Below are positions 668 to 25,427 of a stretch of DNA of 28,238 nucleotides, piece after piece. Within the stretch, counting starts at the first letter, position 1, and each line of letters begins with the position of its first letter. The notes beneath the pieces were generated by a model, which searched no databases, had not been told where the DNA came from, and saw only the letters and a program-made list of their open reading frames with translations. Location: positions 1-28,238 of IMG/VR virus record IMGVR_UViG_3300027851_000103; one strand, given 5' to 3'. The position numbers and the translations under genes are program-made. Source of the stretch: a virus.

Positions 668-683
668 TTGTGTTATTCTCAAT
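668..683 (-). promoter_or_regulatory. Phage-wide motif copy (divergent member) before internal virion gene
   Basis: On the minus strand this reads ATTGAGAATAACACAA, which matches most positions of the minus-side consensus RTTGAGATAATCGCAA. It lies 18 nt before the GTG at 650. It is the weakest of the minus-side copies, but its place between genes and its orientation fit the others. Confidence 0.45.
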
Positions 684-710
684 GCACCTGTGTCTTTTAT
701 TCTTGGTTTT

Positions 711-737
711 CCCTCGCTTCGGCGGGGGATTTTTTTT
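711..737 (+). terminator. Intrinsic terminator on the plus strand, antisense to the virion genes
   Basis: CCCTCGC (711-717), loop TTCG, GCGGGGG (722-728), then A and eight T (730-737). The 7 bp stem has one T-G pair. In plus-strand RNA the loop is the very stable cUUCGg type, followed by a U tract. Read on the minus strand there is no U tract, so it should stop rightward transcription only. The T tract also supplies the stop codon of the gp14-like gene. Confidence 0.75.
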
Positions 738-1314
738 AGTAGAATCCGCCACCCATCCACGAAGGCTTCACGTTGCCGGAAGTCTGCCACGGTAGAGTTG
801 TGCTGCTTTTGCCGTACTGCGTCGCGAACTTGCTCGCCCCGCCAAGCAGGTCAGCACCAGCGGTCATGTACGCAGAGGTCATCGCGTTCTTACCAGCCGC
901 GCCATAGGCACCAGCCTGCGCAGTAAAGTTGCTGCCTTGCGTGCGGTAGCCCCAAGCTTCACGAGCCGCGTTGTTGCGGATAACCAGCGCATCGTACTCG
1001 CCCATTGCCGCAGCATCGCCAAGTAGCGAAAGCGATGTGTCGTCACCAAATTCAAACCCACTACCGCCAATCGCAGCACGCTGGCCGCCAACAAACTGGC
1101 GCACCTTCGCGCGTTGCTCATTCTCAGCAATCTTGCCGCGTGCTTCCGAATCCTGCGCCTGCCACTCAGCAATCTTCGCATTGTTCGTCGCAACCTGCGC
1201 CTGATAGTTCGCTTGTGCCTTCGCCGCCTTGCCCTGCTGAATAGAACCCATGACGCTCATCGCCGTTGAAGCGATGCTGCCAATCATGCCAATGGTTGCC
1301 ATTGCTACGCACAT
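736..1314 (-). CDS. T7 gp14-like internal virion protein
   Basis: 192 residues starting MCVAMATIGMIG. The hydrophobic, small-residue N-terminus is followed by a long Ala/Gln/Glu-rich helical region (roughly residues 30-90) and a Gly/Ala-rich C-terminal part ending in WMGGGFY. T7 gp14 also begins MCWAAAI and has the same layout; in T7 it helps form the ejection channel across the outer membrane. A longer in-frame start at 1389 exists, but the ATG at 1314 is preferred because it begins just after the stop of the upstream gp13-like gene (1316) and restores the MC start. It lies between gp13-like and internal virion genes, as in T7-type order. Confidence 0.8.
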   Translation of the reverse strand: MCVAMATIGMIGSIASTAMSVMGSIQQGKAAKAQANYQAQVATNNAKIAEWQAQDSEARGKIAENEQRAKVRQFVGGQRAAIGGSGFEFGDDTSLSLLGDAAAMGEYDALVIRNNAAREAWGYRTQGSNFTAQAGAYGAAGKNAMTSAYMTAGADLLGGASKFATQYGKSSTTLPWQTSGNVKPSWMGGGFY

Positions 1315-1315
1315 T

Positions 1316-1789
1316 TTACTCTCGCACCATGCGGAAAGGGTGGAACGGTAGCCCATACGGGCCGTGAGGTACTGTTGCGAATATATCAAAACCCAGCCAG
1401 CTAAGCCAGCGAATTGATGTGGTGTTGCGCGCGTCTACGTGGTTCTCAAGCACTCGAAAGTCATCAAGCATATCAGCCACAACGCCGTGACACTCACGCA
1501 GGAATTTGCGCTGGTGTTTCACCACCAGGTCAGTGCCAACCATCCACGGCGAGCCAACGCCATCAAGGCCATCAACCGTTGCAACGCCGAACAGGCACAT
1601 AGCTGTGCCATCCACAAGGCCAGCGTACACGCGCTCGCTTGCGCCAACACTCGTTCCAATAGCCATGGCCGGATGCATGCCAGATTGTGCCTTCACCTCA
1701 GCCGCATCGTCATCGCGCAGATTTGCAATTACGTGCTCAATGAACTCAGCCGTTGCCGGAACGATTGCATAGTGTGGGTGGTAGCTCAT
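1316..1789 (-). CDS. T7 gp13-like internal virion protein (acetyltransferase-like fold)
   Basis: 157 residues. It has the layout of the gp13-like small virion proteins of podoviruses, which look like GNAT acetyltransferases: an N-terminal 'ATAEFIEHVIANLRDDDAAEV' type helix, a central 'PWMVGTDLVVKHQRKFLREC' strand-helix, and 'NHVDARNTTSIRWLSWLGF' near residue 125, the usual position of the GNAT asparagine and helix. In T7, gp13 is needed for assembly of infectious particles. Whether this protein has enzymatic activity cannot be told. Its start overlaps the end of the 760-residue tail gene by 4 nt, so the two are probably translationally coupled. Family assignment is by recognition of overall pattern. 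Confidence 0.75.
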   Translation of the reverse strand: MSYHPHYAIVPATAEFIEHVIANLRDDDAAEVKAQSGMHPAMAIGTSVGASERVYAGLVDGTAMCLFGVATVDGLDGVGSPWMVGTDLVVKHQRKFLRECHGVVADMLDDFRVLENHVDARNTTSIRWLSWLGFDIFATVPHGPYGLPFHPFRMVRE

Positions 1790-4068
1790 GCGTCAACCTC
1801 AGGAATAAGTGCGAGAACGGAAAGCGGCAACGGGTCGCGCTGCTGCACGATAAGCGTCGCCTGTTCAACATTCTCAGGCACAATAAGAAGTTCGAGTTCT
1901 TCGGTGCGCAGGCCGTTCGTCCACAGCGGGTCGCGCTTCAGCTCGGTCATATCATTGCGGTTCGGCCCAGCCCACATGCCGCGGCTACGCTCAACACGCG
2001 CGCGCAGTCGCACCGTCTTCTTGCGCCGGCCAATGCCACCTTGTGTATCGCCAATAGGCAGCGACTCGATCTCAGAAACGTAAGGCAAACCGATGTGAAT
2101 CACGCTGGCAGCGACCGGCAACGTGATGCTGCCGTTCGTCACCGTGTCTTGAGGAAGAACTGCGCCATCGGCCAGAATGGCGACAGTTTCCCCTTCCAAG
2201 TGGTCAAGACCTGAAACCGTCGAAACCGGCGAGCCATCATACGTTAGGCCGCAATGAACAAAGAATGCATCCTCAGGCGCGCTTACAAGGCGCGAGGCAA
2301 AGCGCTCAACATAGCGGCGGGTCACGCCGTCGATAGTGCGCTTCACAATCACATACACGGCATCTTCGTTGCCCTCACTGATCGAGCAGACCGACTCGTA
2401 CTCACCGTCAGTCACCTGATGCGTCCATGCGATAAGCTCTTGCTCGCGCATATACGTCATCGTTGCCATCTGGCCGTTATCAAGCACAGCCCACACGACT
2501 GAGTACGGCACTGCCGCATAGGCCCACTCTTGAATCTCACGCCCTTCAAACAGGTGCGACGAGATAACCGAGAGGTCAGAACCCACATAGTTATCAGCAG
2601 AGAACGAGTAGCCAAGGTCGCGAACGATGTTGCCCTTTTCCTGCACGTACAGCACGATGTCACCAATCACGATGGGCGGTACATGGCTGACGCCAATCTC
2701 GCTTTGCAGCCGCACCATCATCGACGAAGGCGTGACAACATCCGAATTGCCGCCAGCCGAGATTTTCCACACGCCGCCGCTGGTCAGAACAAGCAGCTCG
2801 CGGATGGGGACAAAGTGGCGAATCTCGTTGACCTGGCGCGCAGCAATGTTCCGGCTGATTGCGTCATCAGGCTTCGATGGGGTAGAGATGTTGTAGTTCT
2901 TGTACTGGCCAGACTGACTCATATCCAAACCCTGCGGCCTGTTTATCGAGCCGCCTTCTACTGAGCGCTGCTCAAAGTAAGACGAACACTGCGGGTATTT
3001 GCCTGCCGCATCAAACGGGTTGCGCGCTTCAGGCGGCGCATCAAGGGTGTCAGGCTCGATCTTCGTGTCGCGGAACGACCAGTTGTTGCTGCCATCCGGC
3101 ACAGCCTGACCAATGAAGCCGTAAACGCCGTTAGCGCTTTTATAGATGTTCACCTTGCCAGCCGTGGCGGGGGCTGTACCAACAAGTTCAAGATACTCGC
3201 CGGCGTTCCAGTCGGCATCTACCACACCAGCTGCGGTGTATTCAGTGGTTGGCAATGACTCTTCAGCCGTGTCCTCGTCCGTCGATGTCGCCTTATATTT
3301 GTAGTTCTGCGCAGTACCGGCGCCGCTGAATGAGCTGCTCGAAATCGTGGGAGCGCTGATAGAAGGCGCATAGGTTGGCGTCGTCAGCGTCCACGAGTCA
3401 TGGTCGGTGCGGGTCAGTTCGCGCTGCTGATAGCTGCGATGCGTCAGCGTCATCACGTCAGCCGACTGCTTGTATTTCAGAAGCGGGAGGTCAGCGGTCA
3501 CGTATGGCGTCACAAGCGTATAGACGCGCGCCATGCTGCCGCCGCTGGTGTACGCGGTGAATCCGCTGGTGTCGATGGCGTTACCGTCAACGTCATTCAG
3601 CTCGAAAGTATTTGCGCCTGCGTTCACATTCGCCACAACGACCGTCTTGCCGTTCAGCTCGGTCATGCCGACGATGCCGCTAAGCACGAACCAGTCACCG
3701 TTCGACGGGTCAGCGCCAACATAGGTGAGCACACCGGTAGCAGCCTGAGTGATGCCGCCAATGTTCTGCGCATCTTCAAGCACGTATGCGCCGTCTTTGA
3801 TGACGCGCATGTAAAGGTTGCCGAACTCAAGCGCGTAGGTTTGCGTGGTGTTAAATTGAAATGGAATCAGGCGTGTGCGTGCGGCGCTGTTCTTCACCTC
3901 GCCCACAAACATGGTGCCAGGTGTGTTCACCAGACCGCCCGCCCGTGTGACAAGAACATTCTCGCCAACCCTTACACCAGAGCCAAGCGCGGCAAGGTCT
4001 ATACGCCCGTACAATGACGGGGCAACCTCACCCTTGGCAAATGATGGCTGAGGAACCCATTGCGCCAT
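1786..4068 (-). CDS. Large tail/structural protein (tail tube B-position)
   Basis: 760 residues. The N-terminus (SFAKGEVAPSLYGRIDLAALGSGV, then NVLVTRAGGLVNTPGTMFVG and LIPFQFN) is the typical opening of a large tail protein widespread in BPP-1/epsilon15-type and many other podoviruses. The middle, about residues 230-310, is Ser/Thr/Ala-rich and may be an Ig-like or fibronectin-like insert. The C-terminal part holds RRKKTVRLRARVERSRGMWAG. It follows the tail-tube-A-like gene with a 1 nt overlap, the position occupied by gp12 (nozzle) in T7-type order. That functional match is inferred from position, not from visible sequence similarity. No signal peptide or membrane segment was seen. Confidence 0.8.
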   Translation of the reverse strand: MAQWVPQPSFAKGEVAPSLYGRIDLAALGSGVRVGENVLVTRAGGLVNTPGTMFVGEVKNSAARTRLIPFQFNTTQTYALEFGNLYMRVIKDGAYVLEDAQNIGGITQAATGVLTYVGADPSNGDWFVLSGIVGMTELNGKTVVVANVNAGANTFELNDVDGNAIDTSGFTAYTSGGSMARVYTLVTPYVTADLPLLKYKQSADVMTLTHRSYQQRELTRTDHDSWTLTTPTYAPSISAPTISSSSFSGAGTAQNYKYKATSTDEDTAEESLPTTEYTAAGVVDADWNAGEYLELVGTAPATAGKVNIYKSANGVYGFIGQAVPDGSNNWSFRDTKIEPDTLDAPPEARNPFDAAGKYPQCSSYFEQRSVEGGSINRPQGLDMSQSGQYKNYNISTPSKPDDAISRNIAARQVNEIRHFVPIRELLVLTSGGVWKISAGGNSDVVTPSSMMVRLQSEIGVSHVPPIVIGDIVLYVQEKGNIVRDLGYSFSADNYVGSDLSVISSHLFEGREIQEWAYAAVPYSVVWAVLDNGQMATMTYMREQELIAWTHQVTDGEYESVCSISEGNEDAVYVIVKRTIDGVTRRYVERFASRLVSAPEDAFFVHCGLTYDGSPVSTVSGLDHLEGETVAILADGAVLPQDTVTNGSITLPVAASVIHIGLPYVSEIESLPIGDTQGGIGRRKKTVRLRARVERSRGMWAGPNRNDMTELKRDPLWTNGLRTEELELLIVPENVEQATLIVQQRDPLPLSVLALIPEVDA

Positions 4069-4694
4069 TACGAACCTTCGCCGCCGAGATAGCGCAGATA
4101 GTATTCAGGCGTGCCGCCGAGCCGTGCCTCAAGCCAGTCCGGTGCAGCAGGCTCTTCAGCCTCGCCCTCGCTTGCGTCAGCAGCTTGTGCCATGCGCATT
4201 GCATTCATGAATTTGGTTGCGGCTTCCTGCGACTTCGACGGCGCGATGGTCGGAGCCAGGCGGTACGCAAGGCCGAATGCGAATGCGTCAATGAAAGTGG
4301 CATCAAAGAGCAGATCGTTCTCAACGTCGAACGTGAAAACAAGTACCGCATCTTCTTGGTTTGTGTAGAGCACGCGCGTGGTGCCGTCAGCAGACAGGCC
4401 AACCTCGAATGGAATCTTGACGCCAGGCAGCGACGACACGATGTAGCGCGCTTTCACGCAGCCGGTCGGCAGTACATACATATACGTCCACGGCGCTGGG
4501 CCATCGCCAAGCAGCGCAAGGTTCACGCGAACGGTCGCGAAGTTCCACGGGTGTGCGCGCAATGTCGCGCGGCGGGCAACGTCATAGTAAAGCTTGCCGT
4601 AGCGAGCCTCTACGCTTGCCTCGTCGATAGACTGGATGAATGCCTTGTGGCCTATGCCAGCATACGCAAGGTTCAAAATGGAAACCTTAGACAC
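4068..4694 (-). CDS. Tail tubular protein A-like (head-tail adaptor)
   Basis: 208 residues from a GTG at 4694. The segment 'ILNLAYAGIGHKAFIQSIDEASVEA' followed by 'YDVARRATLRAHPWNFATVR' (residues about 5-55) is the hallmark of tail tubular A / gp11-like proteins, which bind below the portal and start the tail tube. The C-terminal region is Ala/Glu-rich and ends YYLRYLGGEGS. A copy of the phage-wide motif lies 16 nt upstream (4710-4725), so this gene may begin a transcription unit or be controlled separately. It overlaps the next gene by 1 nt. Confidence 0.82.
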   Translation of the reverse strand: MSKVSILNLAYAGIGHKAFIQSIDEASVEARYGKLYYDVARRATLRAHPWNFATVRVNLALLGDGPAPWTYMYVLPTGCVKARYIVSSLPGVKIPFEVGLSADGTTRVLYTNQEDAVLVFTFDVENDLLFDATFIDAFAFGLAYRLAPTIAPSKSQEAATKFMNAMRMAQAADASEGEAEEPAAPDWLEARLGGTPEYYLRYLGGEGS

Positions 4695-4709
4695 AGAACG
4701 CCCCGCGGC

Positions 4710-4725
4710 TTGCGATTATCTCAAT
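4710..4725 (-). promoter_or_regulatory. Phage-wide motif copy before tail tube gene
   Basis: The minus strand reads ATTGAGATAATCGCAA, a full match to the minus-side consensus. It lies in the 63 bp gap between the 68-residue gene and the tail-tube-A-like gene. No TTGACA-like box sits 14-18 nt upstream. Confidence 0.65.
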
Positions 4726-4757
4726 ACGAGAGGCGAGGCATTACGCCCCGCCACCCA

Positions 4758-4964
4758 TTACATCACCTCGTCAGCAGCCGGTTCAGGCTCGGCTACCTTG
4801 GGCGTTTCCTTTTTCGATGGCTTCGGCTTGTCTGCCTTGACCTCGATAGGCTCAACAGGGGCCATCCACGAGCCGAGCTTTTCGTTCGCGCCAATGTCGA
4901 ACTCTTCGCCCTTCTCGCGGATGGCACCGCCGTAATAGCCTTTGCTGGTTGCAACGACCTTCAT
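4758..4964 (-). CDS. Small conserved virion-cluster protein
   Basis: 68 residues. The N-terminal half (MKVVATSKGYYGGAIREKGEEFDI ... LGSWMAPVEP) resembles a short conserved protein often encoded next to capsid genes in BPP-1-like and other phages. The motif is 'GYYGG...R..GE.FDI' followed by 'WM.PV'. The second half is a Lys/Pro/Glu-rich low-complexity tail. It lies between the cement protein and the tail tube gene. Function is unknown; a head-completion or small structural role is only suggested by position. Confidence 0.7.
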   Translation of the reverse strand: MKVVATSKGYYGGAIREKGEEFDIGANEKLGSWMAPVEPIEVKADKPKPSKKETPKVAEPEPAADEVM

Positions 4965-4972
4965 GCTAACCT

Positions 4973-5416
4973 CTACAGAGGCGCAGTCTGGTTGCCGGCA
5001 GTTACGCCCGCAGTGATCTTACCAGCAGTGAAGTTACCAGCACCGCCTACGGTGTAGTACAGGCGCATGTACTGGTAGTTCACACCTTTCGGGATGTAGT
5101 CGAAAGGAATCTGGAAGCCAGCCACCAGCTCGGCCTCGGTGTAAGTACCAAGGCTGATGCTTTTGTCAGGCGTGAACGTGTCAGTGCTGTCGAGTTGGAT
5201 TGCGATGGTCAGTGTTCCATCCTCAGCAGCAGTGTCGAAGGTTTCCACCACCTGGATCAGCAGCGGCACCGGAGTGCCCTTGCCTTGGTCCATGTTGATG
5301 TCAGCCGACGCGCCATAGACACGCCCGTTGTCACCGAAGTCGATGACGTTGGTCGAGGCCGCGCTTGCCGTAATGGCCTGCGCGTTCGAGAGTTGAAGTT
5401 TCTTGTCGAAGATCAT
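4973..5416 (-). CDS. Bbp16-like capsid cement/decoration protein
   Basis: 147 residues. It begins MIFDKKLQLSNAQAITASAAS and continues with STNVIDFG and a run of beta strands, including 'GTPVPLLIQVVETFD', 'DGTLTIAIQLDSTD', 'SISLGTYTEAEL' and 'YQYMRLYYTVGG'. This matches the pattern of the Bbp16 family, which binds on the outside of BPP-1-type capsids and stabilises them. It lies 25 nt after the major capsid gene, as expected, and no membrane segment or signal peptide is present. The intergenic sequence has a purine-rich ribosome binding site (GGAAAGGAA on the minus strand). Confidence 0.82.
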   Translation of the reverse strand: MIFDKKLQLSNAQAITASAASTNVIDFGDNGRVYGASADINMDQGKGTPVPLLIQVVETFDTAAEDGTLTIAIQLDSTDTFTPDKSISLGTYTEAELVAGFQIPFDYIPKGVNYQYMRLYYTVGGAGNFTAGKITAGVTAGNQTAPL

Positions 5417-5441
5417 GGTTCTATTCCTTTCCTTCGATGGG

Positions 5442-6431
5442 TTACGCTACAGCGGTTTCGGTGTTGAGCAGCGCATCCGTTTCGCGAATCGGAATGCCGC
5501 GGTAGGTCATCACTTCCTGACCTTCCACTTCACGACGCTCAAGACGCACGAAGTTGTCCGAGCTGCCCTTGTTGGTGGCCAGCGCGTCCAGAACTTCAAG
5601 CATGTCGCGGTTCATGTAGATGACCTGTTTGCCACCGGCCACGCGACGCGATTGCAGCTTGTAGTAAGCATTGCGCATGTAGGTGTAGAGGTCTACAGAG
5701 CCGCCACGAGCATTGCTCACGTCGATGTTCGCGATGCGCGCGTTGTAGCGCCAGTCACGTACAGCAACGCCGAGGTGCCAGGTAAACAGTTCTTCTTTGA
5801 CGAAGTACGGGTTGTTGTTTCCGTCAAGAACACGCTGCTCGCCCTTGTCTTCACGCTTCAGGCCAGCAGTCACGCCCTCGGGGTAGATCATGTGGGTGAA
5901 GTTCTCACCCCAAGTCACAAACCAGATCGAGGTCAGGTCGCTGTCCGAACCGCTTGCGTTCACAACCTGGCTGTTGCTCAGGGTGTTATAACGCGAAGCC
6001 AGACCCTTGATTTTCTCAGGGGTCGTCGCGGTGTCGTGGTAGAAGAAGCCGGTCGAAACTTCTTGGTTCATTGCCTCAAGGAAGCCGCTGGCTTCGTTCA
6101 GGCGAACCTTTGCCGGATTCTTCGAGATGTCCAGCAAGCGCTTATCAACGCTCGACAGGGCTTCAACGAAACCGGTGGTGTCATCGACCTGTTGGGTCAG
6201 GCCCTTGCTTTGAGGAATGCCCTGATAGAGAGCGCCCCACGAAACCGAGGGAAGACCGGTGCGGATGGTGTGACGATGCTTCGTGCCCATGTTGCATTCC
6301 ATGGCAATCGCATCTTCAACGATTGGGTTTTGTTTAGCGAGAACCTCAACAACATCAGCAATGCCACCATCAGGGTCGGTCTGCTTCGCGATGTCGAGAA
6401 GGGTCAGGTTGCTGGCGGTTAAAGTGGCCAT
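5442..6431 (-). CDS. Major capsid protein (BPP-1/epsilon15 type, HK97 fold)
   Basis: 329 residues. Characteristic stretches are 'TLLDIAKQTDPDGGIADVVEVL', 'HRHTIRTGLPSVSWGALYQG', 'FLEAMNQEVSTGFFYHDTATTPEK', 'LTSIWFVTWGENFTHMIYPEG' and 'VAVRDWRYNARIANIDVSNA', all typical of the epsilon15/BPP-1-type major head protein. The length fits the family, which forms T=7 heads. The ATG at 6431 is preferred over the GTG at 6434 because AAGGAG lies 6 nt before it. The scaffold gene is immediately upstream and the cement protein downstream, which is the usual assembly order. Confidence 0.92.
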   Translation of the reverse strand: MATLTASNLTLLDIAKQTDPDGGIADVVEVLAKQNPIVEDAIAMECNMGTKHRHTIRTGLPSVSWGALYQGIPQSKGLTQQVDDTTGFVEALSSVDKRLLDISKNPAKVRLNEASGFLEAMNQEVSTGFFYHDTATTPEKIKGLASRYNTLSNSQVVNASGSDSDLTSIWFVTWGENFTHMIYPEGVTAGLKREDKGEQRVLDGNNNPYFVKEELFTWHLGVAVRDWRYNARIANIDVSNARGGSVDLYTYMRNAYYKLQSRRVAGGKQVIYMNRDMLEVLDALATNKGSSDNFVRLERREVEGQEVMTYRGIPIRETDALLNTETAVA

Positions 6432-6441
6432 CACTTACTCC

Positions 6442-7125
6442 TTAACTTTTTGGTTGATCGTTTGGATAGAGTCGTTGCTCCGCGGTCTTGGCTTTAGCCG
6501 CTGGCTTGCCGAAACCTGGAGTGTCCTCGCGTAGAGCCTGGCCAACTTTTGCGAGTGCCTTGAGCACAGCGGGATGGTTATTCCCGCCTAGCTGTTTGAT
6601 TGCCGCCGAGAAGTCAGCGCCTAAATAGTCACGGCCTACAGCCACCTCGGGGCGCACAGCCTTTGCCGATGCGTCGAAAATATCGGCATCCTTTTTGGCA
6701 TCAGCGGCCCACTGTTTTTGTGTGGCCTTCCACTGCGCCGCCATCTTCTCACCAACCTTGGAGAGGATTTGCGGCCCAAGCTTTTCGACCAGACCTTGCG
6801 CCTGGTCTTTGTTCAGCCCCAGCTCTTTGAAGATGGGCTTGCTAATATCGGCCAGCTCAGCGTCAGCCTCATAGCCCTCGGGAATGGTGAACTCACCGTA
6901 TTCGTCAGCACCATCGGCTGCGGCTTCAGGCTTCTCTTCTTCGCCAACCTTGCCATCAAGCAGGTCGTCGCCATCGTCAGCGCTCTCAGTCTTTTTCGCG
7001 CCAGCGTCTTCAGCACCTTCAGCACCAGCGGCATCGCCAAGAAGATCATCAGCGGCTTCAGTGGCCTCGGTTGCTTCTGTGACTTGCTCGGTTGCGGTTG
7101 TGTCTGCTGCTGCGGCTACGGTCAT
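6442..7125 (-). CDS. Capsid scaffolding protein
   Basis: 227 residues. The N-terminal 90 residues are strongly acidic and rich in Ala, Thr, Glu and Asp. The central part, about residues 85-180, is helical with 'DISKPIFKELGLNKDQAQGLVEKLGPQI' and a Trp/Gln/Lys-rich segment. The C-terminus is basic ('KPAAKAKTAEQRLYPNDQPKS'). This layout and its position directly before the major capsid gene are typical of phage scaffolds, which guide head assembly from the inside and then leave. It overlaps the Bbp19-like gene by 4 nt (ATGA), suggesting coupled translation. Confidence 0.8.
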   Translation of the reverse strand: MTVAAAADTTATEQVTEATEATEAADDLLGDAAGAEGAEDAGAKKTESADDGDDLLDGKVGEEEKPEAAADGADEYGEFTIPEGYEADAELADISKPIFKELGLNKDQAQGLVEKLGPQILSKVGEKMAAQWKATQKQWAADAKKDADIFDASAKAVRPEVAVGRDYLGADFSAAIKQLGGNNHPAVLKALAKVGQALREDTPGFGKPAAKAKTAEQRLYPNDQPKS

Positions 7126-7415
7126 AGATACATCTCTCTATATAGTTTCATGAACCCTTGCGGGTCGTTATCGCGCAGGATTCGAGTAGCCATCAGCCCC
7201 ACAGCGCGCGCCCCTTCGACGCGACCGGATGCTGCGCCTTCAAACGCGTTGATGTTTTCGAGCTGGCACAGCTTGAGGAACTCCCCCAGAACTGTACGGC
7301 CAGACTCCGATGCCAAGACCTCTGAAACGGCAACCGCCAAGCGCTTCTTTTTTTGCGCTTCGGTTTCTTTGCGCCGCCTAGCCTTGTCTTCATCAACGTG
7401 TTCAATCTCAGCCAT
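7122..7415 (-). CDS. Bbp19-like small virion-cluster protein
   Basis: 97 residues. A very basic N-terminal helix (residues 10-30, many Arg/Lys) precedes 'SESGRTVLGEFLKLCQLENINAFEG' and 'GARAVGLMATRIL', the pattern of the Bbp19 family encoded near the portal in BPP-1-like phages. Function is unknown. A copy of the phage-wide motif ends on the A of the start codon, and there is no room for, or sign of, a ribosome binding site. The gene could be read from a leaderless message. It overlaps the scaffold gene by 4 nt. Confidence 0.75.
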   Translation of the reverse strand: MAEIEHVDEDKARRRKETEAQKKKRLAVAVSEVLASESGRTVLGEFLKLCQLENINAFEGAASGRVEGARAVGLMATRILRDNDPQGFMKLYREMYL

Positions 7416-7430
7416 TGCGATTATCTCAAC
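7415..7430 (-). promoter_or_regulatory. Phage-wide motif copy abutting the Bbp19-like start codon
   Basis: The minus strand reads GTTGAGATAATCGCAA and its last A is the A of ATG. The embedded GATAAT resembles a -10 box and would place the transcript start at or next to the start codon. Thirty-eight bp upstream begins a 16 bp element (7453-7468) shared with the site at 10985. Confidence 0.65.
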
Positions 7431-7452
7431 ATATCAAACAAGAAGCGCGCTC

Positions 7453-7468
7453 ACAACGCAGGATATTC
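7453..7468 (-). repeat. 16 bp upstream element, copy 1 of 2
   Basis: The minus strand reads GAATATCCTGCGTTGT. An identical 16-mer lies at 11023-11038. Both copies have exactly the same spacing (38 bp, start to start) to a copy of the phage-wide motif, so each pair may form a two-part promoter or operator. Confidence 0.7.
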
Positions 7469-7482
7469 TGAACGTACAGCCA

Positions 7483-7833
7483 TTAGTGGTTTTGCTTAAC
7501 GGCGACTAAAGTCACATCAAGGTCAGAGCCGGAACCGCCAGATAGCAGCGGGCGAATGAATGCAGCCTTAGTGTAGACGTGCTTCAAGCCAGCAGAGGTG
7601 AATGTTACAGCAGCGCCAGCCTGGTCGGTTGCCGTCACCCAGTTTGAACCGTCATTGCTCGCCTGAATCGTGCAGGTAGCACCACCGAACGTGCCAGTCA
7701 CCTGTACGCTCGCATGCGCAAACGACGAAGCCGCAACCGGCGAACCATCAGAGTTCGCGTTCGTGATCGTTTCCCAAAGAACTTTCATTGCGCCAAAGCC
7801 AAGGTCTTGCGCGACGCCTGCTACTGTTGCCAT
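7483..7833 (-). CDS. Small beta-rich virion-cluster protein
   Basis: 116 residues. The core 'ASVQVTGTFGGATCTIQASNDGSNWVTATDQAGAAVTFTSAGLKHVY' and the end 'FIRPLLSGGSGSDLDVTLVAVKQN' form a compact beta domain. This layout is common in small phage virion proteins (V.V.GTFGGA...SNDG.NW...D..G...). It probably decorates the head or tail, but no specific function is shown. It is encoded between the 118-residue 'MC' protein and the Bbp19-like gene. No membrane segment or signal peptide was seen. Confidence 0.72.
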   Translation of the reverse strand: MATVAGVAQDLGFGAMKVLWETITNANSDGSPVAASSFAHASVQVTGTFGGATCTIQASNDGSNWVTATDQAGAAVTFTSAGLKHVYTKAAFIRPLLSGGSGSDLDVTLVAVKQNH

Positions 7834-7849
7834 AAACTACACTCCCAAT

Positions 7850-8206
7850 CTACTTCGCATATTGTTTTGCTTGACTCTCATGCAAGCGGTTGGCGTATGC
7901 CGTCGCTGCACTTGGCGTTCTAAATTTACCGAGATGCTTGCCAGTTTTCTTAAACATCTCGATGGCCTCTTTATTCGACACGACACGACCATCATCGCTG
8001 ACTGTCGGTATGAGTATCTCACCCTCGTCAGTCCCAATAGAAATCGACCGCACTGTGCTTATTGAGCCGTCGCTGTTCTTAGCAATCGGGCGTGCGTTCA
8101 GGTCTATGTTACCTTTCTCAATCATACCAGACTCTAATGACTCAGGCTTAGCTGAGGAAGCCGGCGGTGGAGGTGGGGGCGCTGAGTTATTGCCTGCTAC
8201 GCACAT
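7850..8206 (-). CDS. Small 'MC...PPPPPP' protein with GNIDLN-type domain
   Basis: 118 residues. It begins MCVAGNNS followed by six prolines (residues about 11-16). The rest ([26 protein letters not shown] ... [31 protein letters not shown]...A.AYA..LH) is a domain I recognise from many phage virion proteins, often as a module of larger internal or tail proteins. Its function is not established to my knowledge. The ATG lies 2 nt beyond the portal stop codon. The MC start resembles that of the 72-residue and gp14-like proteins of this phage. Confidence 0.72.
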
Positions 8207-8208
8207 AA

Positions 8209-9912
8209 CTACACTCCCAACATTGCACCCAGAGCGTTCTGCTGCGGGTTGATTTGCGTTTCACTTAAAGCCTTCGCGGCTTCCACTGCCTGTGCGGCCT
8301 GCACCTGCTGTTCCATTTGCTGCTGCTGCTGCGCGCGGCCTTCGCGAATTGCATCGCGCTTTTCGACCGGCGTGATGATGCGAACAGGCGCGCCACCCTT
8401 GTTGCCGAGAATCTGCGCAGCTTCATCAGCATCAAGATTATCCATCACATCGGGGTTGCCAGTGGCCTGCGCCATCAGCGCAAGGTTCTGCACATAGCCA
8501 ATGGTGCGGGTCACTTCTTCTTGCTCCTGCGCCTGACGGAAGATCGAGAGGAATTGCACCTCAAGCTTCACGTCTTGCAGCTCAGGCGGCGGCGGCGACA
8601 CTAGCATGGGGTTGCCGTCCATATCCTGCGCGGTCATCATCACATCAAACGAGCGATCAATAAGCGGCTCAAGCACCTCGTCGTTCAGGCGCTCAACCAC
8701 AGGGCCGAGGCCGATAAGCTTCTCAGCTTTGCGCTCGATGATTTCAGTCGCGGTGATTTGCCCTCGCTCCATTTGGTGAAGCATCAGGAACAGGTCTTTG
8801 TAGCATCCGTGCTCGATGCGCTGCTGCACTTCCTGAATGTCAGCCACAAAATGCTGAAGGTTCGGCTGCACGGTCTGCGCCGGCGTTGCGTTCACGCCCT
8901 GCCCCATACCGTCAACGAAATTCTGTGTGCCAGGGTCGAGCGAGTATGCAGCCCCGCCGTGCTTCATCGCGCCAGGCAGGTTCACCGCAGGGTCAATTTG
9001 CTTGTCAACCGCGCGCGCCTTTTTCTTTGTCATGGCTTGCAGCGAGATGGCATCGCCAAGCACGTCACTGCCTGGGTGTCCCGTCCCATATGCATCACGG
9101 CCAATGACTTTCCATCGCGGGCACATGAATGGTTTGCTGTCGAAGCCCTCGGTCGCGAGAATTTCGTCTGCGTTCGAGCCTTGCTCCCACCAGATCGAGC
9201 GCCACGGTTTGCCACGCCAGCCGAATAGGCCAGGCATGAACTCGTCATTCGGTTCGATCATGTGGCAGACAACTAGCGTCGAATCGAGCTGGCCACGGTT
9301 GTAGAGATTGCGGGCCGAACGCGAGAGCTTCTCAACGCCAAAGCGGCGGGCTGCCTGCCCTACCGTCCACTGCATCTCACGCACCATCGTGCTGATTTCA
9401 TCGCGGTCATCAGACGCCAGCCAGTATTCACCAATCGTCAGGCCGTAGCCGCGGATAATGTCTTGCCGGTCTTCGTACAGCATGATGACGCCAGTGCCGA
9501 AGGTGCCAAGCTCCTCGTAGCAATTCGACAGTACGTTGTAGACGTTGCTGTTCGCAAACATCCCAGCCATGCGGTTCTCGACTTCTTCAAGCCAAAGCTT
9601 GATTGAGCCGTGCTTCATCATGTCGGGGTCTGGCGTGGTCAGCTTGAACCACGGGCGAGCTGGCGAGGTGATGCCAGCCATGAGGCCAGATGCCAGCGTG
9701 CGCATCGCGTAGGTCGCGGTGCCATCGTAAATCTTACGGGGGCGCTTGGTTCCTCGGTTGGCCTCAGTCGTCAGCCATCGGCCTCGGGTCGGCAGAATGA
9801 AGTCCTGCTGATCTTTCCAGTCGGATTCCCACGGCGTGCGGTCAGCCTTCATCGCCTCGAGCCGGCGTTCAAGATACTGCCGAGGCTTTGATTTGTAGCT
9901 GAAGTCAGCCAT
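8209..9912 (-). CDS. Portal protein (head-tail connector family)
   Basis: 567 residues. The N-terminus '[34 protein letters not shown]' followed by '[32 protein letters not shown]' is diagnostic of the portal / head-to-tail connector family of BPP-1-, epsilon15- and T7-type phages. Twelve copies form the channel through which DNA enters and leaves the head. The C-terminal part (about residues 470-567) is rich in Gln, Ala and Glu and probably forms the long helical crown. Length fits the family. It lies downstream of the terminase genes and upstream of the scaffold and capsid genes. Confidence 0.92.
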
Positions 9913-9922
9913 TCATTACCAC

Positions 9923-10438
9923 CTACTCAGCCGCAATCGCGGAGCCGAGAGAAACAGCAATGCACGCGCTACCCGCGTCACCATCAGAGAAGTATGCAAT
10001 GCAGCCAGCGAACTCGGTTGCGTCCGGCTGCGTGGCCACGGTGTAAACCGGCAGCTCAAGCGGCAGCTCGATGGCAATGCGGTCATCACCAACAGTGGCA
10101 ACCGTGTTACCAAAGCGGTCTTTGGTTTCGCTGATCGTCATCGCACGCGCAGTCAGCGTGTACGTAATCTCATCTTCTTCTTCTTCAGGGTCAGTGACCA
10201 GCGCGCGGAGGCGGTAGTTCGTCGGCTCGTTGATGTCGTTGGCGTACAGTGTGGCCGTAGTGTCCACAGCGTATTCGTTCACCTTGTCCCATACGTTGAG
10301 GCTGGTGCCACGCTCGACAACAACCTTCAGACCCGCATAGGTGCCTGAAAGCGTTAGGTCTACGAATTGGCCAGGGTAGACTGTGACAAGCGCCGATGCG
10401 CCTGCCGCCGTGAATGTTCCGCTTGCGCTCGTTGCCAT
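9923..10438 (-). CDS. Beta-rich virion-cluster protein, function unknown
   Basis: 171 residues. The first ~100 residues resemble a small beta sandwich ('ALVTVYPGQFVDLTLSGTYAGLKVVVERG...WDKVNEYAVDTTATLYANDI...YRLRALVTD'). There is an acidic loop (residues about 83-90, PEEEEDE), then 'ITYTLTARAMTISETKDRFGNTVATV' and a hydrophobic end. It lies between the 72-residue 'MC' protein and the portal, where related phages often carry a head decoration or fibre-like gene. I do not recognise a named family. Confidence 0.65.
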   Translation of the reverse strand: MATSASGTFTAAGASALVTVYPGQFVDLTLSGTYAGLKVVVERGTSLNVWDKVNEYAVDTTATLYANDINEPTNYRLRALVTDPEEEEDEITYTLTARAMTISETKDRFGNTVATVGDDRIAIELPLELPVYTVATQPDATEFAGCIAYFSDGDAGSACIAVSLGSAIAAE

Positions 10439-10447
10439 GGCTTGCCC

Positions 10448-10666
10448 CTACTGTCCGATAAGTTTCTTTTGCATCGTGTTTGCTTCGCCGGTCACACCCA
10501 TGGGGCTAGTGGCGACGGTTGATGCCGAACCTGCTGCTGCACGAGCACGGCTACGTTCATCGGTACGTGCGCGCTGCACGGCTTCATCAGCCTGCTTCGG
10601 CGGTGCGGGCGGCTTTACAGGTTCAGGCGGTGGCGGGGGCGCGGCGGGCGCAGAGAACATGCACAT
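10448..10666 (-). CDS. Small 'MC...PPPPP...KLIGQ' phage protein
   Basis: 72 residues starting MCMFSAPAAPPPPPEPVK. A proline-rich N-terminus is followed by a charged helical stretch (EAVQRARTDERSRARAAAG) and a Ser/Thr/Gly/Pro loop, ending QKKLIGQ. Small proteins with this plan (MC start, proline run, Arg-rich helix, '(K)TLLG' type end) are common next to portal or terminase genes in podoviruses and other phages. Their role is unknown. A longer in-frame start at 10903 would overlap the upstream membrane gene widely; the ATG at 10666, 2 nt past that gene's stop, is preferred. Confidence 0.7.
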   Translation of the reverse strand: MCMFSAPAAPPPPPEPVKPPAPPKQADEAVQRARTDERSRARAAAGSASTVATSPMGVTGEANTMQKKLIGQ

Positions 10667-10668
10667 AG

Positions 10669-10974
10669 CTAAACTCCAAGGATTACGATGATTGCGGTCA
10701 GGTAGCCGGCAGCTACCGAGAGCGCTGGCAGTGTTTGCGATAAGCGCCAAAGGCCGTAGAGCTTCTCGTACTCTTCGCCCTTCTCTTCGCTGTATGCCAT
10801 GAGCTTCGTGTAAAGCTCTTCGTGCATGTACGCGCTGGCCAGCGACAAGACGCCAAAGATGCCAGGGATAATGCCCGCGTCGATGCGGCGGCCAAGAAGC
10901 CAACCCGAGATAACGATGAGCAAAAGCGTCAGGATGTAGCCGATGACGAGTGCGTTAATTGAACGATTGTACAT
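10669..10974 (-). CDS. Three-helix inner-membrane protein (holin candidate)
   Basis: 101 residues with three hydrophobic segments: about residues 9-27 (LVIGYILTLLLIVISGWLL), 32-50 (after a charged RRID turn) and 82-101. A charged loop EEKGEEYEKLYG separates the last two. GGAG lies a few bases before the ATG, and a copy of the phage-wide motif lies just upstream. The size and number of helices would fit a class I holin, but no lysozyme gene is adjacent, and many phages have unrelated membrane proteins here. No specific family was recognised. Confidence 0.65.
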   Translation of the reverse strand: MYNRSINALVIGYILTLLLIVISGWLLGRRIDAGIIPGIFGVLSLASAYMHEELYTKLMAYSEEKGEEYEKLYGLWRLSQTLPALSVAAGYLTAIIVILGV

Positions 10975-10984
10975 GCATGCTCCG

Positions 10985-11000
10985 TTGCGATTTCCTCAAT
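10985..11000 (-). promoter_or_regulatory. Phage-wide motif copy before the membrane protein gene
   Basis: The minus strand reads ATTGAGGAAATCGCAA, differing from the consensus at one position. It lies 10 nt before the ATG at 10974. The 16 bp upstream element at 11023-11038 has the same spacing to it as the pair at 7415/7453. Confidence 0.62.
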
Positions 11001-11022
11001 ATGCCAGAATTGCGGCAAGGCA

Positions 11023-11038
11023 ACAACGCAGGATATTC
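11023..11038 (-). repeat. 16 bp upstream element, copy 2 of 2
   Basis: Identical on the minus strand (GAATATCCTGCGTTGT) to 7453-7468. It lies in the short gap after the terminase stop codon. Confidence 0.7.
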
Positions 11039-11051
11039 CTAACATTGATGG

Positions 11052-12515
11052 CTACACAGCGAACGGGTCGTAGTCAGGTCGCCGCGACTGAGTGCGTGGC
11101 GCTGCGCCGTACACCGACTGAGCAAGCACAGGGAATGCAAACGTCAGTGCTAAGGCATCAGCTCGGTTGGGCGACGGAAGGCCGCGGTCTTTGAGCGCCT
11201 CTTTTGGCTCAAGCTGAATCTTGCCGTCCATGCGCGGCACGGTTTCAATGCCGGTCAGGTCGTCGCGCAGCACGTTGTCTTTGGGTATTGCACCGCCAGA
11301 CTTCAGCCAGTCGCGCATCTCGCCCCACATTTCAGCACGCTTGTTCAGGTAGCCGGCGCTGGTCGGCTTGCCCGAGAACCAGACGATTTGCCAGCCACGC
11401 CCCATGGTGCTGCCTGCTGACACGATGCCAGTGCCATAGCCGCCATCGACAAACACGGCCTGAGCTTTGTGCTCGTCTTGCAAGCGGGCGAGAATGTTGG
11501 CCACATGCACATCGTTGTCGTTCTTCGGCATGGTGAGAAGAACCTCGCTAAAAAGACCCTGACGCTTGACAATCACCAGCTCGTCATCACCAGACCATGC
11601 AGGGTCAACGCCGAGAATGACCGGCGCGAAGTCGTATTGCTCTTTGCGTAGGAAGCGGCCAAATGCTGCATCCACATCGGCTTCGGAGATGAACTGCTTG
11701 GCTGACATCGAGGGGAATACGCCGCGAACACGCACCTTCACAAAGTCTGAGTCTTCGCCGTAATCCTCAACCCACTTGGCGATCTGCACCTTGTTCGTGC
11801 CATCGACCGTGCGGCTGTCGATCTGCCTGTTCACCCATCGGTGCTTCCATCTGCGGAAGCACTCACGGAAGCGACCAGTTGCCCGTGTTGGGTTACCAAA
11901 TGCAATCCAGATGATTTCGGTGCCCTCGTCGGTCAGCGCGCCTTCTGCCACCTCCCACACCTTGTCAGCGATTGCTGAGCCTTCGTCGAAAATGAGGATG
12001 ATGCGCTTGCCCTCGTTGTGAAGACCAGCGAACGCCTCGGTGTTGTTCTCGCTCCACGGCACAGCGTCGGCGCGCCATGAGCGGTCATGCTGCGGGTCGG
12101 TCGAGAAGATTGCGGTCGCTGTGGGTTTGAACCAGTGGTTGTTCTCGCCAAGCCTGAACCACTTGGTGATCTCAGGCCAGGTCTTTGTCATGAGCTGCTT
12201 CTCGGTGTTCGCCGTAACGACCACCTTGCAGTCTTCGCAGGTAGACATGCCCCAGTGCGTCACCTGCCCGATGAGCGCTGACTTGCCAATGCCGTGGCCG
12301 GATGCGACTGAGATGAGAAGAGGCTGGTGCCGTGTTGCCTTATTGCGCAAGTGCTTGCCGATGACGCCAAGGATGTCATCCTGCCACTCGCGTGGGCCAT
12401 TGCTGTTCGACAGCTCGCCTTCGCCCCATGGGTAAGCATAACGCACAAAGCCACGAGGGTCGTGGGTATAGCGCGCGATGTCTTCGATTAGCTGCTGCTC
12501 GGGGTCAACCGCCAT
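11052..12515 (-). CDS. terL: Terminase large subunit
   Basis: 487 residues; packages DNA into the head using ATP and cuts it with a nuclease domain. Walker A is at about residues 71-79 (ASGHGIGKS) and Walker B with the catalytic acid at about 171-178 (RIILIFDE). The C-terminal RNase H-like nuclease carries 'LGVDPAWSGDDE' (D304), 'AVFVDGGYGTG' (D357) and 'NRADALALTFA' near residue 460, which give the expected acidic metal ligands. All key motifs are intact and the length is normal. It is preceded by the small subunit and a tiny membrane peptide gene. Confidence 0.95.
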   Translation of the reverse strand: MAVDPEQQLIEDIARYTHDPRGFVRYAYPWGEGELSNSNGPREWQDDILGVIGKHLRNKATRHQPLLISVASGHGIGKSALIGQVTHWGMSTCEDCKVVVTANTEKQLMTKTWPEITKWFRLGENNHWFKPTATAIFSTDPQHDRSWRADAVPWSENNTEAFAGLHNEGKRIILIFDEGSAIADKVWEVAEGALTDEGTEIIWIAFGNPTRATGRFRECFRRWKHRWVNRQIDSRTVDGTNKVQIAKWVEDYGEDSDFVKVRVRGVFPSMSAKQFISEADVDAAFGRFLRKEQYDFAPVILGVDPAWSGDDELVIVKRQGLFSEVLLTMPKNDNDVHVANILARLQDEHKAQAVFVDGGYGTGIVSAGSTMGRGWQIVWFSGKPTSAGYLNKRAEMWGEMRDWLKSGGAIPKDNVLRDDLTGIETVPRMDGKIQLEPKEALKDRGLPSPNRADALALTFAFPVLAQSVYGAAPRTQSRRPDYDPFAV

Positions 12516-12518
12516 GGG

Positions 12519-12611
12519 CTATACGAATGCGGCACCAATCAGCATGCCGATGACGATGATGGCCAGCACAGCGACGGTGCCAGCGGTTACGAGCAATAGG
12601 TCTTTAAGCAT
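12519..12611 (-). CDS. Tiny single-helix membrane peptide between terminase genes
   Basis: 30 residues (MLKDLLLVTAGTVAVLAIIV and further hydrophobic residues), nearly all one transmembrane segment. Three ATG codons follow each other (12617, 12614, 12611). The last is preferred because GTGAGG lies 6 nt upstream of it. The gene overlaps the end of the small terminase gene by 8 nt and ends 3 nt before the large terminase start, so it is embedded in the packaging operon and would be translated with it. No family was recognised. Confidence 0.5.
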   Translation of the reverse strand: MLKDLLLVTAGTVAVLAIIVIGMLIGAAFV

Positions 12612-13152
12612 CATCATCCTCACCCTCGGCAGCTTTTGCACGAGCACGCGCCTTTGCAATGCGGTCAGCAAGGGCAACGGTTCCGCTGTGCTCGATTTGT
12701 TCTTTGAACGCTTGTACAGCAACGTGCTTACCAAGCAGCTCAGTGCGCTTGATGCGACTATCAAGCTTGATCTTGCGCGTGTAGCCAATCAGGTTGCCCT
12801 GCTTGTCGCGCTCCTCGAACGTGTCGATGCCCTGCACTAAGCCCTGACGCCAGATTAGCGGCCATTGGCTTGGCGGTTTGATTGCACCGGTTTCGTCGTA
12901 CAGGTCAGAAATATCGGCCTCAGCTTCAGCGGCCAAACGCTTGAGCACCCACGCCGCGTCAATCTTGGCTTCCCGCGCAACTTCAGCCATCCCCTCAGCA
13001 ATAGCCTTAGCAACTTCAGGGTACTTCATGATGGCAACAGCCTGCTGTTCTGCGGACTTCGCGCTATAACCAGCTTCAATTGCCGCCTGCTTGCCATTGC
13101 GACAAATGAGGTATCGTTCAACGAACAGCCTGTGCTTTGGGTTAAGTGCCAT
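12604..13152 (-). CDS. terS: Terminase small subunit
   Basis: 182 residues. The N-terminal DNA-binding domain 'MALNPKHRLFVERYLICRNGKQAAIEAGYSAKSAEQQAVAIMKYPEVAKAI' is typical of the Terminase_2 (XtmA) family, with a helix-turn-helix at about residues 18-45. The middle is helical ('AWVLKRLAAEAEADISDLYDETG') and probably makes the ring. 'PSQWPLIWRQGLVQGIDTFEERDKQG' and 'KIKLDSRIKRTELLGKHVAVQAF' are also family-typical. The protein recognises phage DNA and starts packaging. It is the first gene of the minus-strand virion unit, with a motif copy 20 nt upstream. Confidence 0.9.
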   Translation of the reverse strand: MALNPKHRLFVERYLICRNGKQAAIEAGYSAKSAEQQAVAIMKYPEVAKAIAEGMAEVAREAKIDAAWVLKRLAAEAEADISDLYDETGAIKPPSQWPLIWRQGLVQGIDTFEERDKQGNLIGYTRKIKLDSRIKRTELLGKHVAVQAFKEQIEHSGTVALADRIAKARARAKAAEGEDDDA

Positions 13153-13171
13153 GCCATCAGAATAGCATTGC

Positions 13172-13187
13172 TTGCGATTTTCTCAAC
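13172..13187 (-). promoter_or_regulatory. Phage-wide motif copy before terminase small subunit
   Basis: The minus strand reads GTTGAGAAAATCGCAA, one mismatch to the consensus. It lies 20 nt before the ATG at 13152. Just upstream on the same strand is GGATTATCC (13191-13199). Confidence 0.62.
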
Positions 13188-13213
13188 GATGGATAATCCG
13201 AACAAAAACGGCT

Positions 13214-13444
13214 GTCCCACCGTCCCCATCTAGTCCCCGTTTAGATTGTCAGAACATGGGACAGAAAAAACCCAATAACTCCAATATATTATATACTATG
13301 TCCCTCTTGTCCCTCTTCTATTTGGTAAAAAGGTATAATGGTTGGTAGTGGGTATATGCATGTTCACATAATCATTACAGTATGTAGAAGTATCCCATTT
13401 CTGTGGTGTCACCATGAGCTATGTCTCGGGACAGGGACAGGGAC
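13214..13444. repeat. Cluster of nine GTCCC/GGGAC motifs
   Basis: GTCCC at 13214, 13222, 13233, 13300 and 13309; GGGAC at 13258, 13428, 13434 and 13440. The left group points one way and the last three copies the other (GGGACAGGGACAGGGAC, 6 bp period). A 9 bp tandem repeat TGTCCCTCT occupies 13299-13316. A pentamer would be expected about once or less in this length, counting both strands. Confidence 0.75.
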
Positions 13445-13504
13445 GAATAAACCATTGTAAAACCTCAATTCACAAACAATCCGCTAACGTAACGATATTT
13501 GGCG

Positions 13505-13520
13505 TTGCGGTTATCTCAAT
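13505..13520 (-). promoter_or_regulatory. Phage-wide motif copy in the divergent region
   Basis: The minus strand reads ATTGAGATAACCGCAA, one mismatch to the consensus. It has the orientation of the minus-side sites but lies closer to the plus-strand gene at 13571, so it could serve leftward transcription or act as an operator for the rightward promoter. Confidence 0.6.
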
Positions 13521-16810: not shown

Positions 16811-17049
16811 AGGAATCGGTTGGTGCTGATCCTCTGGTCGCACGGCGCGACATCGTACTCAGCCTCCCGAGTTTGCCGAACCGTGGTGATTTGTCTTCGG
16901 CACTCAGTAGGGCAATGCCTGGCACCGTAAACATAAGAGGCCAAGGCTGAGAGCCGCACTCACACTGGGTTACAGGGATGTGAAAATAATCCTTGACTGG
17001 CATGAGTGTTGAGATTATCTTAACACGACCAGACACACAGGAGGAACTT
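16811..17049. other. Intergenic region with a single promoter-like site
   Basis: 239 bp without a convincing gene. The left 170 bp hold nothing I can name. The right end holds the AT-rich stretch, TTGACT box and phage-wide palindrome that precede the gene at 17050. Confidence 0.6.
16983..17024 (+). promoter_or_regulatory. Promoter/operator-like site, plus-side type
   Basis: An AT-rich stretch (AAAATAATCC), then TTGACT at 16993-16998, 10 nt later GTTGAGATTATCTTAAC (17008-17024, imperfect palindrome). GATTAT inside it begins 14 nt after the -35-like box. The upstream stretch GAAAATAATCCTTGAC is repeated exactly at 28150-28165. Confidence 0.65.
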
Positions 17050-17273: not shown

Positions 17274-17384
17274 ATGACACGCTTACTCAACATCACATTG
17301 CTAGCACTGCTTATAGCCATGCCGTTTGCGGCTGATATTGGCTACAGCAAATGGGTGAAAATGGAGCAGGAACGCAATCAGTAG
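17274..17384 (+). CDS. 36-aa membrane or secreted peptide
   Basis: 36 residues: a short basic start (MTRLLN), a hydrophobic stretch (residues 6-20) and a charged tail. It could be a single-pass membrane peptide; 'PFAAD' would also fit signal peptidase cleavage. GGGAGG lies about 8 nt before the ATG and the gene starts 2 nt after the previous stop. No homolog was recognised. Confidence 0.45.
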   Translation: MTRLLNITLLALLIAMPFAADIGYSKWVKMEQERNQ

Positions 17385-17392
17385 GAGGATTT

Positions 17393-24674: not shown

Positions 24675-24877
24675 AGCCCATTCAACTCTTCAAACGAAAG
24701 GGCTGCGCCGCGACGCCGCGCCTCCATCACCAGAAACGCATGGTGGCGGGTAGGAATCTTGCCGTCTTTGCGGGTTTCCCACTCGCGTGGGCAGGTGCGG
24801 GTTACGCCACACAGCCGCGCCAGTTCGGCCTTCGACCCAATGTCAAGCCGTTTCATTACCAATTTGACTACCGTCAT
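24671..24877 (-). CDS. Cro-like HTH regulator
   Basis: 68 residues. 'LDIGSKAELARLCGVTRTCPREWETRKDGKIPTRHHAFLVMEARRRG' is a helix-turn-helix of the Cro/YdaS-like type: helix 2 is 'KAELARLCG' and the recognition helix 'TRTCPREWE'. The end is 'LSFEELNGL'. The gene diverges from the XRE repressor at 24995 across 117 bp, a typical lysogeny switch arrangement. It is the first gene of the helicase/VRR-NUC unit. The pairing as a true switch is inferred. Confidence 0.7.
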   Translation of the reverse strand: MTVVKLVMKRLDIGSKAELARLCGVTRTCPREWETRKDGKIPTRHHAFLVMEARRRGAALSFEELNGL

Positions 24878-24937
24878 AAAAACTCACCAGTTAGATTTTC
24901 ACAACCATACCATTTCGTAAATCACAACGCAACATTA

Positions 24938-25402: not shown

Positions 25403-25427
25403 GGCGCAATATAGCACAGGAGAGAAC

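Follow-up and report, generated by a model that had tools for sequence, protein, structure and literature searches.

The window analysed here, a stretch of 28,238 nucleotides that makes up positions 1 to 28,238 of the IMG/VR virus record IMGVR_UViG_3300027851_000103, carries a short repeated sequence in its gene gaps, which raises the question of what this repeat is and which protein would act on it. The comparisons described below make it quite probable that the repeats form a dispersed set of operators for a C1/Cro-type repressor encoded by the phage itself at 24995–25354.

Judged by its proteins, the window belongs to an epsilon15-like podovirus (TerL is 56–64% identical to five aligned relatives and the portal protein is 39% identical to that of epsilon15). 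A second contig, G001 (IMGVR_UViG_3300006033_000083), is identical to the window over 13,296 bases and holds the remainder of the late region and an integrase gene. The operator that comes last in G001 (30960) reads as the window-end operator (28178) seen from the other side, suggesting that the genome is probably circular or permuted, with a length of about 45.8 kb. At the window end (28134–28238) the last 50 bases are a perfect 50-nt inverted repeat of the preceding stretch, ending at the contig end; this fold-back, which is centred on the operator, is probably an artefact of assembly or amplification. Other features of this genome are an identical 30-nt direct repeat present twice in the window, 6 kb apart (14772–14801 and 20795–20824), and, in the late operon, one reading frame of 2528 aa (1887–9473 of locus L046 from G001).

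Form and distribution of the repeat

The repeat had been described in an earlier note on this DNA as a 16-mer, RTTGAGATAATCGCAA, and all five copies listed there with 0–2 changes are present, at 4710 and 7415 (no mismatch), 13172 and 13505 (one mismatch) and 10985 (two mismatches). Allowing up to three mismatches on both strands, there are 14 matches to this 16-mer compared with 0.38 expected from 100 dinucleotide shuffles. The true form of the repeat is an odd-centred dyad of 15 bp, TTGNGATNATCNCAA, of which the 16-mer is one version. The common orientation reported for the copies therefore holds for their minor asymmetries but not otherwise, and an asymmetric one-way motif is ruled out since the site is a dyad.

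Counts against the dyad were made over window positions 1–28193 plus the G001 extension, with the last G001 site dropped as a duplicate of window 28178, and were compared with 300 first-order Markov shuffles. There are five perfect sites (shuffle mean 0.000, maximum 0), 11 sites with at most one mismatch (mean 0.083, maximum 2) and 17 with at most two (mean 1.65, maximum 7); at the one-mismatch level the window alone contributes seven sites and the extension adds four that are not duplicates. A search over all hexamer dyads that used a likelihood score ranks TTGAGA-N3-TCTCAA first, with a score of 18.8 against 9.9 for the best of three null runs, whereas by raw count there is no excess (12 copies, the best dyad in each of three shuffles having 12–20). 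The further dyads from this search of the phage, AATGCC-N9-GGCATT (score 17.5) and CTATGC-N5-GCATAG, probably derive from the 18-nt tandem repeats at 17448–17998. The gene that contains these repeats (17351–18142) is predicted to encode a YdcK-type β-solenoid or bactofilin-like protein, which is unusual for an early phage operon.

With a gene list made by hand, in which gaps amount to 7.3% of the window, all seven window sites with at most one mismatch are centred in gaps (binomial p = 1.1 × 10−8), as are nine of the 13 with at most two (p = 3.1 × 10−8). The motif is thus not equally frequent inside genes in the window, in agreement with the placement first reported. The four in-gene sites (1375, 10735, 14861 and 26445) all carry two mismatches. 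A crude automatic ORF caller placed three of eight window sites in gaps in its best test (p = 0.06), a result that probably reflects gene calls extended into the gaps from TTG starts. Of the four non-duplicate sites in the G001 extension, two are in gaps and two lie within lysis genes.

Placement of the sites and their possible mode of action

Perfect dyads are found at 4710–4724, 15 bp before a tail gene (4068–4694, minus strand), and at 7415–7429, where the operator abuts the start codon of a gene that is gp5-like by position (7122–7415, minus strand) and shares with it the A of the ATG. Sites with one mismatch lie at 13172–13186, 19 bp before terS (12604–13152, minus strand), and at 13505–13519, in the gap from which terS (minus) and the 13571–primase operon (plus) diverge. 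A site with two mismatches occupies the gap after terL at 10985–10999, 10 bp before gene 10669–10974 (minus strand). The copy at 668–682, noted earlier as a weaker one, is present and is indeed weak, matching the dyad with two mismatches; 6 bp separate its end from a GTG that is a possible start of a minus-strand gene. From 668 to G001:22492, where an operator precedes the tail fibre gene, a stretch of ∼10 kb is free of sites. The operator at G001:26377 precedes the gene for a small membrane protein, called holin-like from its sequence only, with no family match, and perfect operators lie inside the coding sequences of the endolysin (G001 28178–28192, L046 15179) and the spanin (G001 28462–28476, L046 15463).

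The set had been described for the minus-strand half; copies are also present in the plus-strand half at 17009, 25387 and 28178. Read by eye and with no control, each of these covers the weak −10 of a plus-strand promoter-like element with a TTGAC-type −35 box. The first element (16993–17023) consists of TTGACT (16993–16998), a 17-bp spacer and TATCTT (17016–17021), with the operator at 17009–17023. The second (25371–25415) consists of TTGACT (25371–25376), a 16-bp spacer and TAATCT (25393–25398); its operator, the perfect palindrome TTGAGATAATCTCAA at 25387–25401, lies between the repressor gene and a recE-like operon, and an alternative plus-strand promoter (TTGAGA, 17 bp, TATAGC) ending at 25415 can also be read there by eye. 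The third (28161–28192) consists of TTGACC (28161–28166), a 17-bp spacer and TTATCT (28184–28189), and its operator (28178–28192), the window copy of which is distorted by the fold-back, reads TTGTGATTATCTCAA in G001. The divergent promoter gap beside 24995 holds only weak matches, two with three mismatches each (24890 and 24913, spanning 24890–24927).

At these places a dimer of the 24995 product would bind the odd-centred palindrome. On the sites within 16993–17023, 25371–25415 and 28161–28192 it would cover the spacer and the −10 and so block early transcription, by ordinary promoter occlusion. Repressor bound before terS, the gene after terL, genes 7122–7415 and 4068–4694, the tail fibre gene and the holin-like gene, and likewise inside the endolysin and spanin genes, may add local blocks that would prevent expression of the virion and lysis genes during lysogeny.

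Two accounts of what happens at the virion sites are sub-cases of this operator-set explanation and do not exclude it. The first, a serious possibility if somewhat short of an even one, is that the operators of the virion operon are superimposed on weak extended −10 promoters (TGN-GATAAT), so that each site is promoter and operator for the gene behind it. A TGNGATAAT-like sequence appears in several virion sites when they are read along the direction of transcription, and the base at the centre, on which a symmetric protein makes no demand, is A in 16, T in four and C in one of 21 gap sites on the coding strand, in a small tally of rows that were chosen where the direction seemed clear and are not independent (the sites of L301 look orthologous to those of L300). 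The phage's own late gap sites contribute five A and two T and its relatives 11 A, two T and one C, not all 14 of the latter preceding virion genes; the tally leaves out the three early sites, both readings of 13505, the two in-gene sites (both A) and sites that have an ambiguous direction or lie inside ORFs. As a sign of an extended −10 under the operator, this bias is only suggestive. Moreover, several sites read GAAAAT, GGAAAT or GAATAT instead, a transcript starting at 7415 would be leaderless, and no −35 box could be seen by eye at the virion sites. The original proposal that GATAAT is a −10 box survives as an overlap of operator and promoter, and the remark that most sites lack a −35 box is borne out for the virion sites but overlooked the TTGAC boxes upstream of the three early ones, all of this being read by eye.

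The second account, possible but rather doubtful, is that the repressor, when bound to the virion sites, stops polymerase during elongation, the mode of action proposed for the stoperators of mycobacteriophage L5. Such an action could account for sites that recur along a long run of genes on the same strand (0.3–4 kb apart save for the one ∼10 kb stretch), that include two perfect copies inside the endolysin and spanin genes and that have no −35 boxes in the virion region. However, the sites are palindromic rather than asymmetric, and, as regards the direction dependence reported for L5 in the available text of PMC9283540, what is seen here is the central A in 16 of the 21 selected rows. In addition, the late operators of four epsilon15-like phages precede genes at fixed distances (89, 103–105 and 64 bp) with a promoter-like element between, which fits promoter control.

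The candidate repressor

The most likely repressor of the operator set is the predicted 119-aa product of 24995–25354 (plus strand), which matches Pfam HTH_3 (E = 5.9 × 10−6), an HTH_3-type domain being the only one recognized, and which is the positional equivalent of the epsilon15 repressor. Divergent from it, 24671–24877 (minus strand) encodes a small HTH protein of 68 aa with a weak YdaS match (E = 0.04) and is a candidate for a Cro-like gene. The 66-aa product of 13571 has a weak HTH_3 match (E = 0.021); as a binder it was dropped when tblastn against the loci collected at that point gave no match, leaving no linkage to assess. Among the three regulators that the earlier note had put forward, 24995 is singled out by the linkage of operator and repressor in other phages.

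This linkage emerged from operator-only scans of viral contigs with two patterns, which returned 88 loci, or 87 once one from this phage was set aside. The majority of the 88 are presumably chance matches; six have at least three sites with at most one mismatch, or two perfect sites. The comparison set comprised 159 loci of TerL relatives (the top 80 among 239 and the top 80 among at least 596, with one from this phage left out). In a search with an HTH-domain profile, a gene of the 24995 family (E < 10−9) is present in five of the 87 operator-fetched loci and absent from 82, compared with none of the 159 TerL-relative loci, a result to be read with a cut-off that was chosen after the scores were seen and a profile of six sequences that is not independent, four coming from those operator-fetched loci and one from G002. 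Four of the five had already come up in a tblastn search that used only the window protein as query. Weaker HTH matches (E ∼10−5 to 10−4) occur on both sides, in L267 and L273 beside perfect operators and in the TerL loci L095 and L133, where no operator was found nearby. The weakly related proteins of the former pair (L267 4191–4541 and L273 9048–9395, E ∼7 × 10−5) perhaps belong to a separate lineage of repressors that uses this operator.

In L265, L289 and L282 the operator lies ∼60–100 bp before the repressor gene, in the gap to a small Cro-like gene that diverges from it; the operator of L276 lies ∼60 bp behind the repressor gene, as in the window (25387 behind 24995). The small genes of L289 and L276 have P22_Cro matches below the Pfam cut-off, and those of L265 and L282 were judged Cro-like by eye. 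An HTH_3 repressor gene with adjoining palindromic operators, the arrangement expected of a C1/Cro-type pair, is thus found. A comparison with solved structures matched the repressor profile only to generic C1/HigA-type HTH proteins (best E = 0.0035).

In the reverse direction, a single-query search of viral contigs with the repressor found no relative, while an alignment of six homologues as the query found nine loci. Six contigs were fetched by the repressor protein only. Three of them, L309, L310 and L311, which look like one lineage, have five, six and six sites with at most two mismatches, compared with shuffle means of 0.45, 0.80 and 0.50, and operator-like sites, mostly with two mismatches, flank the repressor gene on both sides. 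The other three, L316, Itty13 (L317) and SopranoGao (L318), have no site with at most two mismatches within 1 kb of the repressor gene. Overall, ten of the 13 contigs with a family member (E < 10−9) have such a site within 1 kb. The 24995 protein is without the C-terminal region of its 193–206-aa homologues; the family members in G005 (no more than 108 aa between stops) and G007 (no more than 93 aa) are short as well.

A host-encoded regulator on which many phages of a single host group rely could also own these sites, and the motif does recur in phages with TerL only 36–38% identical (G003, G005 and G006). This origin is highly improbable, since the operator-only searches retrieve the 24995 family, since ten of 13 contigs with a member have sites close by and since the operator-found contigs G002, G005 and G007 (TerL identity 63, 36 and 51%) each encode a member within ∼500 bp of operator-like sites. 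G003, G004 and G006, fragments of 6.5–17.8 kb, yielded no member of the family. Finally, a chance or compositional repeat without function, with which the two-mismatch copies inside genes would be compatible, is already refuted for the strong sites by their excess over the shuffled expectation (11 against 0.083) and by the same motif standing beside homologous repressors in other contigs, and can be dismissed.

Comparison with known repressor–operator systems

The closest precedent is epsilon15 rather than L5. The GenBank record of epsilon15 (NC_004775) annotates seven scattered binding features, labelled 'repressor, lysogeny', of the form ATTACC-N5-GGTAAT, and the hexamer-dyad search ranks this dyad or a one-base variant of it first in epsilon15, phiV10, SPN1S and Tyrion, with 12–14 copies per phage under a rule of one mismatch per half, a few of the copies lying inside genes. 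In this group a site lies 19 bp before terS in epsilon15 and Tyrion (the terS annotated in phiV10 and SPN1S begins upstream of the operator), 89 bp before gp3, 103–105 bp before the tail fibre or spike gene and 104 bp before a lysis gene, and ruvC or the gene in the equivalent position has sites 64 and 2 bp ahead of it; the stretch between the repressor gene and the downstream operon holds two or three sites, and the divergent gap beside the repressor gene one or two.

A conserved promoter-like element, CATATGTGGTT, mostly followed by a TAATA/TATGAT-like box, is observed in all four phages (L047, L049, L050 and L051) ∼30–50 bp behind the late and ruvC-side operators, before gp3, the tail fibre gene, the lysis genes and ruvC. 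The epsilon15 GenBank record has no feature annotated for it. Its position behind the late operators favours promoter control in the epsilon15 group.

The present phage belongs to the same group (TerL 56–59% identical) and likewise repeats an odd-centred palindromic operator, a dyad of ∼17 bp in epsilon15, in gaps of both the early and late regions. Equivalent sites are found before terS (13172), in the gap after terL (10985), before the tail fibre gene (G001:22492), before the lysis genes (G001:26377), between the repressor and the recE operon (25387) and in the replication operon. The operator sequence differs, TTGAGA-N3-TCTCAA here in place of ATTACC-N5-GGTAAT, and 24995 is not clearly homologous to the epsilon15 repressor gp38 (19% identity over 52 aa, E = 0.008, in the HTH only). 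Sites before genes 7122–7415 and 4068–4694 and inside the endolysin and spanin genes are additional here, and most late sites abut start codons, whereas those of epsilon15 are mostly 64–105 bp away (19 bp for terS).

Among the 159 TerL-relative loci, 150 have no site of the present type with at most one mismatch, six have one and three have two. A de novo palindrome search of the 126 of 160 such loci that are at least 14 kb long shows clear ATTACC-N5-GGTAAT in enterobacterial prophages and weaker TAACCA-N3-TGGTTA or ATAACC-N5-GGTTAT, mostly in gaps and with scores near the null, in Proteus and some Providencia loci; no clear palindrome was found in rhizobial and most other loci, and several high dyad scores there look like low-complexity or repeat artefacts. 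Pseudomonas phage Flu_PA14_4 (L048) has strongly repeated GC-rich dyads, ACCGGT-N1-ACCGGT (21 copies) and GGCTAC-N6-GTAGCC (27 copies). For the epsilon15-like phage vB_EcoP_ZX5, the available text of PMC9782041 speculates on one repressor-controlled promoter and has no mention of scattered sites.

It is conceivable, although unlikely, that in this epsilon15-like phage, and in those of its relatives that share the operator, the virion and lysis operon is silenced by a small dimeric repressor of the C1 type acting through palindromic roadblocks at gene starts and even inside lysis genes, as a stoperator system with an origin independent of L5, and that the operators of the entire genome changed to a new specificity along with the repressor while the core gaps were retained. 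Dispersed operators of one repressor are already known from L5 (available text of PMC9283540) and are annotated in epsilon15. Within the literature searched, what appears to be new is the operator sequence and its link to the 24995 repressor family, its occurrence in a number of uncultured podoviruses, and the observation that related phages have operators of different specificity in equivalent gaps. None of six written-out variants of the site is printed in that literature, and the epsilon15 sites are known through the GenBank features only. The analysis provides a candidate repressor–operator pair that is shared by several uncultured podoviruses, each genome having about a dozen sites, and it shows epsilon15-like phages to have operators in equivalent gaps despite differing repressor and operator sequences. 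How a dispersed set of some dozen sites changes specificity when an immunity gene is swapped can be tested by comparing the two phage groups, and the roadblock question becomes testable outside actinobacteriophages.

According to the available text of PMC9283540, L5 and its cluster A relatives have short sites genome-wide in gaps, at promoters and away from them, for one repressor; the L5 sites are asymmetric 13-mers, more than 20 in number, predicted to be bound by a monomer and dependent on orientation, and the cluster A repressor of solved structure uses two DNA-binding domains. That the sites are operators for a phage repressor is well supported, but the analogy with L5 stoperators drawn at the outset holds only in part, the sites being palindromic here and asymmetric in L5 (PMC9283540). 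The present phage resembles L5 in its short sites scattered in gaps and its single (here candidate) repressor, and its sites lie both at promoter-like elements and away from them. It differs in having 11 strong sites of the palindromic form TTGNGATNATCNCAA in place of more than 20 asymmetric 13-bp sites, and a candidate repressor with an HTH_3-type domain only, in place of the two DNA-binding domains of the cluster A protein.

The C1 repressor of phage P1 serves many operators around the genome, which are asymmetric 17-mers. The likeness to P1 is therefore that of one repressor with many operators, and the difference is that the operators are palindromic here; a literature search for this comparison found nothing. 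The operators of lambda and P22 are confined to the immunity region. The C1–Cro arrangement of those phages is resembled in L265, L282 and L289 by an HTH_3-type repressor gene divergent from a small Cro-like gene, with a palindromic operator in or near the gap, and in L276 with the operator shifted to a position behind the repressor gene. Unlike those of lambda and P22, the operators described here are dispersed over the virion genes.
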